A stretch of DNA of 64,000 bases from Bartonella sp. MM73XJBT.G. Lineage in GTDB: Bacteria; Pseudomonadota; Alphaproteobacteria; Rhizobiales; Rhizobiaceae. Position numbers and translations under genes: made by a program. The notes under the pieces were generated by a model. The model had not been told where the DNA came from and did no database searches. It worked only from the letters and a program-made list of their open reading frames with translations. The DNA is taken from contig NZ_JAQISW010000002.1 of NCBI RefSeq assembly GCF_028618435.1, forward strand, positions 62,001 through 126,000, written 5' to 3'. The number at the start of each line of letters is the position of its first letter. Within the stretch, counting starts at the first letter, position 1. Positions 12,993-18,664 of this stretch are shown here, in pieces.

Positions 12993-13887
12993 TCATGGCC
13001 CCATATGATCCCAATCGGATGGACGCATCTCACCGGTTTGATAAAATTGACGAATGAGCTTAATATAATGAAGAAAGTCTTTGTTTTCCTCCACTAATCT
13101 ATTAGCAATATCCCAATCAATATCTCTCCGTTCTTTAGCTGGAATTATGATCTCACTCTCGGAAGCATTTTCCTTGTCAAGTCTTATAAATCCAATTCCG
13201 TGCAAGCTTGAAAGCATCCGAAGCTCTTTTAATGTATCAACACCTTCAACTTCACTCGCAACTAAATAACTAAAATTTGCCCATGAAGAATTGCTTACTG
13301 TTTGAAAAAATGCTTTTCGTAAATTTGAACGATTAATGAGAATTTTAACTTCAAAAGACCAAAGCTTTGTTTTTTTTATCAAAATATTGCAAAATGCAAT
13401 CTTTGATTTCACGATTCCATTCTTTACTTAAATCCTGTATTCCTACGAGATCTGGATAAAGCCATTTATTCCCTCCTGTACCACTTTTATTACGAGAACA
13501 TTTCTCATTAATGCGCTTGCTATAAACTGCAAGCTCTGACCATAAAAATTTAGATAATAATGGATAAAGATCATGCTCTTTAATAGAGCCATCTTCTGTC
13601 CTACTCTCTGTATTGTCCTCTACTGCATCAATTTCAGCACTATCTGTTTGTTTTGTAAAATAATACTGCCGCGGACGTCCTTCAGTGGTCTTAATTTCTG
13701 GATAATGCTTTTGTAACTGAGGTCGCTGAGATCCTATTTCAGCGACAATTTGCTGAATAAGTGCTGTATCATTCTTAAGAGGAGTGATTGTTGCCGTTGA
13801 ACGCTTTTGTTTTTGGCGGCATTTTTCCGGATAATTTTCAAATATCCATTGTGCAATTTCTCGAGCTGTAAATTTTTTTGGCGGCAT
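12993..13887 (-). pseudogene. hrgA: HrgA-like protein, frameshifted at an A8 run (possible phase-variable gene)
   Basis: Two overlapping frames, 13887-13351 and 13412-12993, together make one HrgA-type protein. The switch point is a run of eight A on the coding strand (T8 at 13370-13377). With one A fewer, DKKNKALVF-stop becomes DKKTKLWSFEVK and the frame runs on to 12993, giving 297 residues. The N-terminus (FTAREIAQWIFENYP) looks like a winged-helix domain. The middle has YPDLVG (PD at 13455-13450) and, after the A run, FEVK (13352-13344), a PD-(D/E)xK-like nuclease arrangement. The downstream part (AFFQTVSNSSWANFSYLVASEV) matches my memory of HrgA, a gene tied to restriction-modification loci. 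The frame ends before ExK as sequenced. It lies downstream of mod-res in the same direction. Confidence 0.7.
13370..13377 (-). repeat. Homopolymer tract (A8 on coding strand) at the hrgA frameshift
   Basis: Eight T on the plus strand, read as eight A in the hrgA direction. Frame restoration needs seven A (or ten). Runs like this are prone to replication and transcription slippage, so the tract could switch the gene or yield some full-length protein; it could also be a sequencing error. Confidence 0.65.
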
Positions 13888-14247
13888 TTTTCTTTAAAAA
13901 ATTAAAAACAGTGTTTGTTAAATTCAAAGTCATACGTAAAATTATTTTCTTTTATCTTCTAGATATCCCATTATATTCAGACTTTTCAAAAGATAGAATC
14001 ATAAACTGATTAAGTTTTTTTTGAAAAAAGTTGTTTATAAAATTAAGATATTTTTTAATTTGTAACGATAAACTTACTGTTTTTTTCATATAAAGAAAGT
14101 AAAATTGTATATTTTTTTATTTAAGAAATTCCTAATATTTTTAAATTAATGATGCAATAGTGTAAATTAAAAATAATATTCAAACATTTTATTGAGCCTC
14201 ACATCTGTCAATAAAAAATTTATGCGTTTTATTTTTGAAACAAAAGG
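13888..14247. other. AT-rich gap between res and the hrgA-like gene
   Basis: 360 bp of mostly A and T with poly-T and poly-A runs. No open frame of note. It is longer than the 22-bp mod-res gap, so the hrgA-like gene probably has its own promoter. Confidence 0.5.
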
Positions 14248-17001
14248 TTATGGGCTCCCAAGTATAGATTCTGAAATGGTAAACTCTGCGCATAAACCTT
14301 CAAAACTACTATTTGCTTTAATAGCATCATGGGGAATAAGAACATAATACCATTTTTTATCGCCATAAGTCGCCGCATAGCGCGTTGCATGACAACACCA
14401 TTGAACTGCTGCTTTTCTTTTTTTCAAAACAATAGCATTTTGTATTTCAGAGGCTTTTTTAGGCTCACAAAGATATTTGGCATCCTTCGTTTCTACAACA
14501 AAGTCCGGTTCATAAGTTGATCCTTTATCATATTCTATTCTGAAAAAACCGCGAGCGGGTTTCATCCATTTCAAGACTTGTGCATCATCCTCTAATATTT
14601 GAGCAAATCGTAATTCCCCTTCTACTGAATCAAACTTTTGTAAAGGATAACAGCATTTTCTAAAGCCGCTGAATACAAGTTTTTTAATATCACTTTTAAT
14701 GGCAGGAATGTTACGAAAATCAAGAGGAGACGTCCCTTGCGGTAACACATAATGGATAGGTGATAAAGTTGTAAAACCTCGTGTAACTTTAATCGCATAA
14801 TCTTTTTGTGTTTCCCATTGATGTTCTCTTAATTGTGCAACAATAAAATTATTAAGTTTATGCTGATAATGAATTAATACATTCTCAACGGCCGTATCAT
14901 TGGGTAAATAAGATCGGAAATGCTCGACCATCTGACCAGCCAATTTTCGTAATAACAGCGTATGGCTATCATAATCGATAAAGTCATTATCAATTAAATC
15001 ACGAATGATATAATTTTCAAGATGAGGCTCTTTGACATATTCATTCTTAGATGTGAGAAAAATGCTTTTATGTGTCCGCAATTCTCGAATTAAAAGTTCT
15101 TTACTAACAGGTTGAAAATTTAAGCTTTCTAGATTTTTTAAATCAAAATCATAAAAACCATAAGTAACATCACGCGAAGGTATGAGTATAATATTTGGAA
15201 TATCTATTATCAGTTCTGTTAATTGTTTTGTCAGAATTGTCACCACTTTTGATACAAGAGACTTTTGTGATGAAGGCTTAATATTCATAACTTTATTAGC
15301 AATTTTTTCTTGTATCTGTGCAGAACAAAGCATTTGAGAACTTGGCAATTTATTATTCTCTTTAATAAGATCCCACGCGATCGCTGCAATTTCTTGCTCT
15401 TCAGATGTTAATGTAGGGGAATCTGTATTACGTAATATGATACCTTGTAAATCAGAAGATGCTCCATTTATATCGGAATTACGTGTTACCATCGTTTGCA
15501 TCAATAAAGCTTCTACTTGGCTTGGAACTGTCACTATATCGGTCTTTTCAGAGGGGATATTCCCTCCTGTTCCAATCTCAATATGCTTTTTTATAATTGA
15601 GTTTGGATCGTTTGCACGATCAATAATATCTTGAAAACGATCATGCGCAATAATTGTTAAACGATCAATAGCTTCCACGCCTGTTCTATATCCATAAGGC
15701 AAACGCAATCCACGCCCAATTGTTTGCTCTGTTAAAATTTCTGAAGCCGATGCACGCAACGGTACAATAGTATAGAGATTCGTAACATCCCACCCCTCCT
15801 TTAATTTATTAACGTGAATAACAATTTCTGTTGGTTCATGAGGATCCTCAATCGCAATAAGCTTTTGAATATTTTGATCTTCTTCTATATTGGACTGTTT
15901 TGTATGAATCTCTGCGACTTTTCCCTTATAAGCCCCTGCAAAAAAATCATCTGATTCCAAAAAGTCACGCAATTTCTGTGCATGATTTGTATCTTGAGCG
16001 ACAACTAAAATAAAAGGCTTAACGAATTTTTGATTATAATCCTTGGCATAGGTAATTAAATCTGTTTTTACATTTTCATGGGTATGAATCGCATCTTGTA
16101 ATTTAATATATTCTAATTGCTCAGATGTATAATTTTGAGGTTGAAAGTCTTTACGTGTAGCAACCGCAGGTTCTTTTACAAAACCATCCCTCATAGCCTC
16201 TGCAAGTGGATAATGATAAACAACATTTTTAAAATTTACAGGTTTTGCACCTATTGTTTTTGGTGTCGCTGTAAGCTCTATTCCTAATATGGGTTTTAAC
16301 TCATTAATTGCTGCCGCACCAGCAGAAGCACGATAACGATGTGCTTCATCCATTAACAAAACTAAATCAGGAAGATTTGCGAGATAATCAAAATAACTTT
16401 CACCAATCGTTTCTTGTAAGCGTTTAATACGCGGAACACTAGATTTTAGTGCACCTTTTTTATTATCCGTTGTATTAATTTTAGAAATATTAAAAATATT
16501 GATAAAGGCCGTATCTCTATTCTCAAACAAACGCTTTTGTCCTTCAAAATGGTGTTCATCAACGCGAATACCTTTACCACTTTCATAATCTTCACCTGTA
16601 ATAATAACGGGTCTATTGGCAATAAATTCACTCATTCCACTGAAAACATACTTCGGACTTTGGGGACTAAAATCCTGTTTTAACTTTTCATAAATAGTCA
16701 AATTTGGCGCTAAAACAAAAAAATGGCGACTGCGACCTGTTAAATAAAGATAGCTAATAAAAGCCCCCATAAGTCGCGTTTTCCCAACACCTGTTGCTAA
16801 GGCAAAACAAAAAGAGGGAAAGTTTCGTTCAAAATCTTGCACAGAAGGATAAAGATTTTTTATCACTTCTAACTCTGCAACCAAATCAGCATTTTTAGAA
16901 AGCTCTATATTTTCTAAGATTTTTACCAAAATATTTAAAGATTCACGTTGAGGATCACGTAACGATAAGCGAGCAGAAATCCTTTTTTCAACAGTGTTCA
17001 T
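14248..17001 (-). CDS. res: Type III restriction enzyme, Res subunit
   Basis: A 917-residue SF2 helicase-nuclease that cuts DNA with its Mod partner after ATP-driven communication between two sites. Walker A ATGVGKT is at residues 69-75, DEAH at 218-221, ELTATP near 242 and motif VI QTIGRGLRLP near 426-435. The C-terminal nuclease shows a PD-(D/E)xK centre: YEPDFVVE with Asp833 and CEPKK with Glu846 and Lys848. All motifs look intact and no internal stop is present, so the subunit should be active. It follows mod by 22 bp on the same strand, forming a two-gene operon. Confidence 0.93.
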   Translation of the reverse strand: MNTVEKRISARLSLRDPQRESLNILVKILENIELSKNADLVAELEVIKNLYPSVQDFERNFPSFCFALATGVGKTRLMGAFISYLYLTGRSRHFFVLAPNLTIYEKLKQDFSPQSPKYVFSGMSEFIANRPVIITGEDYESGKGIRVDEHHFEGQKRLFENRDTAFINIFNISKINTTDNKKGALKSSVPRIKRLQETIGESYFDYLANLPDLVLLMDEAHRYRASAGAAAINELKPILGIELTATPKTIGAKPVNFKNVVYHYPLAEAMRDGFVKEPAVATRKDFQPQNYTSEQLEYIKLQDAIHTHENVKTDLITYAKDYNQKFVKPFILVVAQDTNHAQKLRDFLESDDFFAGAYKGKVAEIHTKQSNIEEDQNIQKLIAIEDPHEPTEIVIHVNKLKEGWDVTNLYTIVPLRASASEILTEQTIGRGLRLPYGYRTGVEAIDRLTIIAHDRFQDIIDRANDPNSIIKKHIEIGTGGNIPSEKTDIVTVPSQVEALLMQTMVTRNSDINGASSDLQGIILRNTDSPTLTSEEQEIAAIAWDLIKENNKLPSSQMLCSAQIQEKIANKVMNIKPSSQKSLVSKVVTILTKQLTELIIDIPNIILIPSRDVTYGFYDFDLKNLESLNFQPVSKELLIRELRTHKSIFLTSKNEYVKEPHLENYIIRDLIDNDFIDYDSHTLLLRKLAGQMVEHFRSYLPNDTAVENVLIHYQHKLNNFIVAQLREHQWETQKDYAIKVTRGFTTLSPIHYVLPQGTSPLDFRNIPAIKSDIKKLVFSGFRKCCYPLQKFDSVEGELRFAQILEDDAQVLKWMKPARGFFRIEYDKGSTYEPDFVVETKDAKYLCEPKKASEIQNAIVLKKRKAAVQWCCHATRYAATYGDKKWYYVLIPHDAIKANSSFEGLCAEFTISESILGSP

Positions 17002-17023
17002 GAAAAACTCCGCTTTTTATATA

Positions 17024-18664
17024 TTATTCAAATAGATCTAATTCTGCTTGCGCAATATCTTTATTTTTGTTGTTTTCTTTTACTACAATCACTGGTTCAA
17101 GATTGGCTACATTTAAACTGTAATCGTCCCTTCCCCATTCGCATTTTTCTAATATTGCACGGGGGATTTTAGTGAGTGTCAGATTTTCAAAGGATGCTGA
17201 TTTTGTATCAAAAGCGGTGCAACAAATCAGCAACGTGCGATGAGAGCCTACCTCTTCACTCATTATACGGAGTTGTTCATGGGTCATAGCGCTTGTTGTG
17301 ACATAAATATAATCTGTTTCGGTTGAATACCCTTGCATCCAATAATGATTTTCATCAGGTGCGTAGGTAAATCCCATATGTTTGCACATTGCTTCTGAAA
17401 GCATCGCAGCATTATATTCGCGACTAATAATCCATTGTCCCCATGGATCTTTTTCTAACAAAGAAGGTGCAAGACGATAATAACGGAACCCACCGCCACC
17501 TTGCCAATTGACACTTTGGGAAATTCCCCCTTGATCCGTTCCATCAATGACTTGTTTTAAACGAGGGATAATGTGGGTGTGACAATGTTCACCAAGTTCA
17601 ATCATAATCCACTTTCTTCCCATTTTATGAGCAACAGCACCGGTTGTGCCGGAACCCGCAAAGGAATCTAGGACAAGATCACCGGGATTAGTGGCAAGTT
17701 GAATAATACGCTCTATGAGCTTTTCAGGTTTAGGAGTTGTAAAAACATCATCAGAATTAAAGGCTTTGACTTCTCTTTTGGCATCTTGATTATGTCCCAC
17801 TTCCGTATAGGGCCAAATAGTCATTGAAACCATACCATTTTTTACTTCTGATAAAAAACGCTTAATACGGGGTACTCCATTATTATCTCTTCCAAACCAA
17901 ATACGATTATCTTTTAATAATTCAGAGAATTTTTTTTCACTTATAACCCAACTTCTACCATGAGGAGGCATTACCTTTCGTCCAGAAGGTGTGGTGATTT
18001 CATAAATATCTTTAAGAGTCACCCTTTTTACGGATAAATTATCTGATTGCCATAGACCACGCGGATCATTATCAGGATTTTTATAGCGGGCATCCATATC
18101 TGTTGAACGAGGAAGTAAATTAGGGCGCCAAATCGTTTTATCCTTAGCATAAACCATTATAAAATCATGGTTATCCGAAAGCCATTTTGTATCATTTTGT
18201 GGAGCATATTTCTTTTGCCAAATAATATTGTTGATGAAATTTTGGCGACCAAAAATTTCATCCATCATTACTTTAAGATAGGCTTGTTCATCATCATCAA
18301 TCGATATCCAGATACTCCCATCATTTACAAGTAAACGATGGAGGAGTTCCAACCTGTCTCTCATAAGACTAAGCCATATGGAGTGCTCCAAACCGTCTTC
18401 ATAATGTTCAAAAGCATTGCCTGTATTATAAGGTGGATCGATATAGATACATTTTACCTTCCCCATATATTCTTGTTCAAGTGCTTTGAGTGCGAGCAAA
18501 TTGTCACCAAAAATAAGTTTATTATCAAAAATGTCCTGAGATGATATTTGATGCGAAGCGTGATAAGATTTTTCAAGATCTTCTAATAAGATACGAGGCT
18601 CTAGTTTTGGGCGTTTTTCTTTTCCAATCCAGTTAAGTTCTAGTTTTTGTTTATTATAACTCAT
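17024..18664 (-). CDS. mod: Type III DNA methyltransferase, Mod subunit
   Basis: A 546-residue adenine-N6 methyltransferase with beta-class motif order: motif IV DPPY at residues 76-79 comes before the SAM-binding motif I DSFAGSG near 333-339. The region between (~150-310) is the target-recognition part and would set the sequence specificity. No simple-sequence repeat of the phase-variable Mod kind is seen in the gene, and it reads through intact. Start ATG at 18664, 83 bp after the sufT stop and on the same strand, with no terminator in between. Confidence 0.93.
   Translation of the reverse strand: MSYNKQKLELNWIGKEKRPKLEPRILLEDLEKSYHASHQISSQDIFDNKLIFGDNLLALKALEQEYMGKVKCIYIDPPYNTGNAFEHYEDGLEHSIWLSLMRDRLELLHRLLVNDGSIWISIDDDEQAYLKVMMDEIFGRQNFINNIIWQKKYAPQNDTKWLSDNHDFIMVYAKDKTIWRPNLLPRSTDMDARYKNPDNDPRGLWQSDNLSVKRVTLKDIYEITTPSGRKVMPPHGRSWVISEKKFSELLKDNRIWFGRDNNGVPRIKRFLSEVKNGMVSMTIWPYTEVGHNQDAKREVKAFNSDDVFTTPKPEKLIERIIQLATNPGDLVLDSFAGSGTTGAVAHKMGRKWIMIELGEHCHTHIIPRLKQVIDGTDQGGISQSVNWQGGGGFRYYRLAPSLLEKDPWGQWIISREYNAAMLSEAMCKHMGFTYAPDENHYWMQGYSTETDYIYVTTSAMTHEQLRIMSEEVGSHRTLLICCTAFDTKSASFENLTLTKIPRAILEKCEWGRDDYSLNVANLEPVIVVKENNKNKDIAQAELDLFE

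Follow-up and report, generated by a model that had tools for sequence, protein, structure and literature searches.

The window, a 64,000-nucleotide stretch of DNA from Bartonella sp. MM73XJBT.G, carries two full-length type III restriction-modification genes on its minus strand and, beyond them, the broken pieces of a third gene, hrgA. The methyltransferase gene mod (17024–18664) is intact and encodes 546 aa (PF01555, 4.6e-53; PADLOC MTase_III, 781.5 bits). The restriction subunit gene res (14248–17001) is also intact and encodes 917 aa (PF04851, 1.9e-22; PADLOC REase_III, 945.7 bits). The two reading frames are separated by 22 bp, in agreement with the tight mod-res arrangement of the original prediction. 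The motifs said there to be kept can be read in both translations: DPPY and FxGxG-type motifs in Mod and, in Res, ATGVGKT, DEAH and PD...EPK, for the helicase and the C-terminal endonuclease. Mod and Res are ordinary type III restriction-modification members, and the pair is probably active. The same genome has a second, distant type III Mod-like gene on another contig (G000:C44:125324-126511), in a 643-aa frame with about 42% identity.

In the window hrgA stands outside the tight operon, as about 314 bp of AT-rich DNA (13934–14247) lie between res and its start. No terminator-like site was found in this gap, and six promoter-like matches were counted on both strands of 13900–14300, against 2.9 (sd 1.7) in shuffled sequence. 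The hrgA remnant (12993–13933, minus strand) consists of three pieces in different frames: a short 5′ piece starting at about 13933, a 178-aa piece (13351–13887) with most of the winged-helix region, E119 and the PD motif, and a 139-aa piece (12993–13412) carrying the SFEVK motif together with Q...SNSSWA. Because the gene is split into two ORFs plus the short 5′ piece, it contains two frame breaks. PADLOC, queried with only the two longer pieces from the window, gave no match for either. The PD motif (13455–13450) corresponds to P160-D161 of intact relatives and the ExK motif (EVK, 13352–13344) to E194-V-K196, so that these residues are also present in the broken pieces and lie at the positions originally given. 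The HrgA-like gene that had been proposed here is a real homologue, with intact orthologues in the genus and nuclease-domain sequence homology to annotated HrgA proteins, but in the window it is not one ORF.

Both breaks fall at A-runs (13873–13879 and 13370–13377), and the lengths of the A-runs at these two places vary among 16 intact orthologues. Of the 103 A/T runs of at least 7 in the window, 45 fall within open frames of 250 aa or longer, including four in mod and res, a count that favours intact frames by design. Sequencing error is the less likely source of the breaks. Phase variation of hrgA was also considered and judged unlikely, as four other broken Bartonella copies (L022, L023, L028 and L029) break at other places. 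The window copy of hrgA looks like a pseudogene, and the modest lesson is that Mod and Res here probably function as an ordinary type III pair.

The state of the three genes was then compared across the genus. A search of 71 Bartonella genomes gave an HrgA match in 31 and a Res match, counting weak partial ones, in 32. The 34 loci fetched comprised every locus with an HrgA match (31) plus three with mod remnants, and a gene was scored as intact when at least 93% of the query lay within one open frame. On this definition hrgA is intact in 16 of the 34 loci. The first 14 loci contained nine intact orthologues of 310–315 aa, not the 297 residues expected for a repaired protein; the other eight are 78.6–93.2% identical to that of L017. 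In named Bartonella records intact hrgA sits between sufT or mod-res on one side and sodC on the other.

All three genes are intact in ten of the 34 Bartonella loci, in the order mod-res-hrgA and in one direction. This is the arrangement that would be expected if HrgA were a functional third component of the type III machinery, binding Mod or Res and cutting where directed, or sensing sites modified by Mod. The pairing of HrgA with mod-res that had been foreseen is therefore real in these genomes, but it does not hold throughout the genus, where intact hrgA also occurs without intact mod in four loci (G017, G028, G073 and G093) and without intact res in six, although these are draft genomes, in which some broken frames may be assembly errors. 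In two of the six loci (G019 and G088) mod is intact and res is broken, and in two more (G073 and G093) both are broken. The mod-res pair has been lost from the locus in G017, where a 50-aa scrap of mod remains with no res match, and in G028, where the best mod match elsewhere has E 2.5e-13 and there is one 74-residue res-like match. The converse, intact mod and res with broken hrgA, is found in the window and in two other loci, G002 and G036. The hrgA and mod copies of G011 are on separate contigs.

Substitutions in hrgA were also counted. Unique silent and replacement changes stand at 17:17 in G017 and G028 together, against 34:34 summed over the ten genomes with all three genes, though the counts are small; pairwise dN/dS for hrgA is 0.09–0.18. 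Left out of this comparison were G093 (6 silent, 18 replacement), whose 321-aa hrgA ORF aligns only partially at the C-terminus, G073 (2:4), G019 (1:2) and G088 (0:1). When G073 and G093 are set against the ten genomes, the Fisher test on silent and replacement changes gives p 0.046, which weakens the case for even constraint across the genomes without intact mod-res.

The retention of hrgA bears on a second explanation, in which HrgA is a suicide effector that fires upon failure of the host methylation mark or of the restriction system. Backup suicidal effectors are proposed for BREX in the accessible part of PMC12839542, and most partners of HrgA are systems that place a mark on host DNA. 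Against this, some genomes whose locus lacks an intact mod still have intact hrgA; unless a further trigger is required, then, losing the mark is not by itself lethal. A suicide effector is, in our estimate, unlikely.

Several Bartonella loci have tandem mod genes before a single res: three intact copies in G029 (L027) and two each in G036 (L023) and G002 (L022), with one mod and two mod fragments in G032 (L018). The tandem Mods of G029 and G036 diverge mainly in the middle of the protein, where identity falls to 27–70%, against mostly 80–100% in the other parts. This would suit a single Res working with several target specificities. The G002 copies are near-identical.

The structure of HrgA was modelled with an intact relative. 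The full-length model (pLDDT 86.3, pTM 0.62) matched winged-helix proteins over its first 95 or so residues, in agreement with the winged-helix-like start that had been noticed, and its C-terminal part matched PaqCI (Z 9.9). The C-terminal domain of an intact relative, not of the window copy, was then modelled alone (pLDDT 89, pTM 0.88) and matched PaqCI (Z 10.0, rmsd 3.9, 142 aligned), SPO1766 (Z 9.2), an XisH-family protein (Z 8.5), NucS/EndoMS (Z 8.1, rmsd 2.7–3.1, 99–105 aligned), AF1548 (Z 7.0) and VC1899 (Z 6.8), with EcoT38I, AspBHI, HindIII, MspJI and FokI at Z 5.9–6.5. These Z values are modest, and a best Z of 7 to 8 is common in such comparisons without a true match. Nearly all of the top matches, however, belong to what we take to be one nuclease superfamily, PD-(D/E)XK, and it is this agreement and not the size of Z on which the assignment is based. 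Foldseek gave a single match at E 0.001 for the C-terminal domain alone (3dnx, E 2.8e-4) and none at that threshold for the full model. Sequence searches of solved structures found nothing at E 1 with alignment A1, whereas A3, a profile of the C-terminal domain, gave one match (E 0.47).

The conserved residues point the same way. In alignment A2, which holds 65 of the 71 long HrgA ORFs, E119, P160, D161, E194, K196 and Q210 are conserved in all 65 relatives, where the PD and SNSSW stretches had served as scan patterns for finding relatives and E119, E194 and K196 had not. With D161, E194 and K196 kept throughout and a PD-(D/E)XK-type domain in the models, the guess of a nuclease fold is supported for the intact relatives. 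The models thus support an architecture for intact HrgA in which a winged helix would be joined to a C-terminal PD-(D/E)XK-type nuclease domain.

The partners of hrgA were then compared beyond Bartonella. A genome scan found at least 568 HrgA relatives, of which the best-scoring 80 were examined, 12 from Bartonella and 68 from elsewhere; being the top of the list, this sample is biased towards close relatives. Type I genes are the commonest partner among these 68 loci (35/68, from the best 80 of at least 568), and hsdM is present in 31 of them. Type III res lies directly before hrgA in three of the same 68 (L073, L084 and L089), overlapping it or within about 60 bp, and mod is present only in L084. 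BREX genes occur in two of the 68 (L044 and L046): L044 has an Eco57I-type methylase, PglZ and BrxL, and L046 was assigned to BREX because its BrxL-like ORF clusters with that of L044. The remaining large group, 27 of the 68 from the best 80, has none of the type I, type III or BREX partners; it includes L064, where hrgA has beside it a kinase and a HerA ATPase with hits to several PADLOC models, those of MADS among them (the kinase scores highest with mad6, at 138.9 bits).

Some assignments in this sample need comment. Loci L082, L096 and L098 match the type III Res profile and were not counted as type III: in L096, one of the 35, the R-like ORF is beside hsdM and hsdS; in L082 the Res-like ORF is on the opposite strand and hsdR is elsewhere in the locus; and the lone, opposite-strand Res-like ORF of L098 is putative, so that this locus is in neither the partnered nor the unpartnered group. 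Four loci without an HrgA ORF in the gene lists (L055, L061, L106 and L109) were retained in the 68.

The partners were followed on a quickly built tree with 65 rows, many of whose forks are weak. With unpartnered rows left out, the partner label changes at least seven times. The labels are nevertheless clustered (18 changes against a shuffled mean of 28.7, with none of 200 shuffles as low), suggesting that partners are also kept for a while. The type III rows require five changes, at least three judged by starred branches. Association with type III genes outside Bartonella, the lack of which would have counted against the original idea, does exist, and hrgA sits close to res in all three of those loci, which would suit a third subunit. 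The dominance of type I genes, the repeated changes on the tree, the Bartonella genomes with intact hrgA and no intact mod or res, and the broken third gene in the window itself all count against such a subunit, which we regard as very unlikely. A dedicated three-part type III unit, as originally envisaged, is not supported and holds only in part.

A third explanation is that HrgA lies near restriction genes merely through the clustering of defence islands and has an unrelated role in DNA repair or regulation. The 27 loci without a tested partner, the housekeeping genes that adjoin hrgA in L043 and L072 and the likeness of the fold to the repair nuclease NucS/EndoMS are in keeping with this. 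So is the hrgA of Acinetobacter baumannii, for which the available portion of a 2019 paper (PMC6563999) gives no modification system within 1000 bp, a finding that fits either a partner-independent role or no defence role. The frequency of hsdM argues otherwise. There were 187 N6_Mtase matches in 150 genomes, from which the share of random places within 10 kb of such a match is put at roughly 1% or less; hsdM in 31 of the 68 loci is far above this baseline and speaks against chance co-location. Gene order does too: same-strand runs of hsdM-hsdS-hrgA-hsdR are present in three of 12 plasmid stretches (L033, L167 and L168), although L033 and L168 have the same HrgA. In Helicobacter pylori, moreover, hrgA is found in place of hpyIIIR, as cited in the accessible parts of PMC4615327 and PMC4687069. 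Clustering alone thus seems quite unlikely.

The 12 plasmid stretches (L030–L034 and L165–L171) include five with a full-length HrgA and type I genes (L032, L033, L167, L168 and L169), L167 and L169 also having one HrgA accession in common. In L170 a fragment of HrgA lies close to an annotated S gene, and in the other six no annotated restriction-modification gene was found near HrgA. A separate, even sample of the phylum comprised 397 genomes, including that of the window, and 15 had an HrgA match; without the window genome the figure is 14 of 396. Four of these 14 are by clear type I genes (L151, L152, L155 and L161), one has an MmeI-like methylase and a helicase beside hrgA (L156), two have only a short remnant of hrgA, each close to one type I-like ORF (L162 and L164), and seven show no verified partner. 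In this sample L153 looks like the same record as L059, and L160 has two putative Mod-like ORFs.

Two further observations concern the neighbours of hrgA. A conserved ORF of about 96 aa lies convergently just 3′ of the gene in 15 of the 68 non-Bartonella loci among the best 80 of at least 568 (L058:10955-11245:-, L057:10936-11235:-, L089:3715-4035:- and 12 more). It occurs alike with type I, type III (L089), BREX (L046) and kinase-HerA (L064) partners, and no match was found in Pfam (two members searched), PHROGs (three) or NCBIfam (two). In Legionella an HNH-EVE protein (10911–11795 in L086) is encoded directly after hrgA, and this gene cluster recurs at the corresponding position in L088.

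The family assignment of HrgA differs between its two halves. Over the 65 members Pfam gave only weak, scattered matches (best E 1.4e-4), among them RlmN_N in 29 (best 2.8e-4), DUF7669 in 13 and Forkhead in 5, and neither NCBIfam nor PHROGs matched intact Bartonella HrgA; no phage record matched HrgA. None of these 65 close relatives matched HARE-HTH (PF05066) at E 0.1, and hhalign of a profile of 20 of them against two HARE-HTH relatives gave a probability of 0.3%. Two HrgA relatives do carry Pfam HARE-HTH (L166, 2.9e-11; L034, 1.3e-7). The C-terminal domain, by contrast, aligned over 230 columns at E 5.9e-49 with a profile built from three distant proteins, the two HARE-HTH relatives just named and an annotated Helicobacter HrgA. 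In the intact-relative model three helices (H23–33, H35–44 and H55–68) precede the wing strands, and the accessible text of PMC11037411 describes HARE-HTH as a winged helix whose HTH contains one additional helix. The modelled extra helix fits this wording, and the N-terminal domain of the close relatives may therefore be a diverged HARE-HTH. Within the family the N-terminal reader may have been replaced and the nuclease domain retained. As the N-terminal domain is not recognised as HARE-HTH, that HrgA reads modification is a guess.

HrgA is best read as a partner-switching accessory, or "backup", nuclease with no need of Mod or Res. For the locus in the window we put at somewhat better than an even chance the explanation that a type III pair stands beside a decayed accessory nuclease, intact HrgA being an add-on that cuts invading DNA without Mod or Res, as a second line. 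The winged helix would probably bind DNA and may read its modification state, and the PD-(D/E)XK-type domain would cut invading DNA once triggered, perhaps by a feature of the DNA or a phage signal. Such a nuclease could act as a backup when the main system is evaded, and appears to be carried by systems that mostly methylate their own DNA (type I, type III, type IIG-like and BREX). A wider version is more tentative and, on balance, doubtful: HrgA may be a mobile backup module that switches between type I, type III, IIG-like, BREX and perhaps MADS-like systems, with one PD-(D/E)XK domain, varied winged-helix readers and often the convergent gene of about 96 aa, which may control it. If intact HrgA cuts DNA alone, several types of restriction locus would share one plug-in nuclease. 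The Bartonella loci, with hrgA alone, mod-res with broken hrgA, or all three genes, form a natural series on the contribution of the third gene.

A literature search, with most subscription papers outside its scope, found for HARE-HTH with type III restriction only PMC10853773, available in part. Within the same scope there was no paper on Bartonella with HrgA, nor on the HrgA protein, and for type III restriction-modification in Bartonella only one, on another bacterium judging by its title.

Compared with known type III restriction-modification, the window locus is alike in Mod and Res and differs in hrgA, which to our knowledge is not among the components of such systems. HrgA of Helicobacter pylori is reportedly the subject of work by Ando et al. 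in 2002 and 2003. That protein and the HrgA-annotated plasmid genes share with the present family the C-terminal domain, as compared through an annotated Helicobacter HrgA and not that of H. pylori, and the linkage to restriction-modification; they differ in the sequence of the N-terminal domain, in the partner, which in H. pylori is the MboI-like HpyIII system and in the window a type III system, and in that the window copy is broken. Type IV DpnI and HhiV4I (PMC11037411, available portion) resemble HrgA in joining a winged helix to a nuclease domain and, likened by this general layout, may be a model for modification sensing. A further parallel is with HARE-HTH/REase fusions. In the accessible parts of the papers, PMC12839542 lists them with the auxiliary or backup nucleases of BREX, and PMC10853773 treats those beside Dnd genes as nucleases that discriminate modification. 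They have the same layout of a DNA-binding HTH and a PD-(D/E)XK domain and are likewise accessory to DNA-marking systems, whereas the partners of HrgA are mostly type I and type III and its 65 close relatives lack a Pfam HARE-HTH. Since such accessory nucleases are described for BREX and Dnd in those partial sources, HrgA belongs to a kind already known, and the window copy is a decayed member of it.
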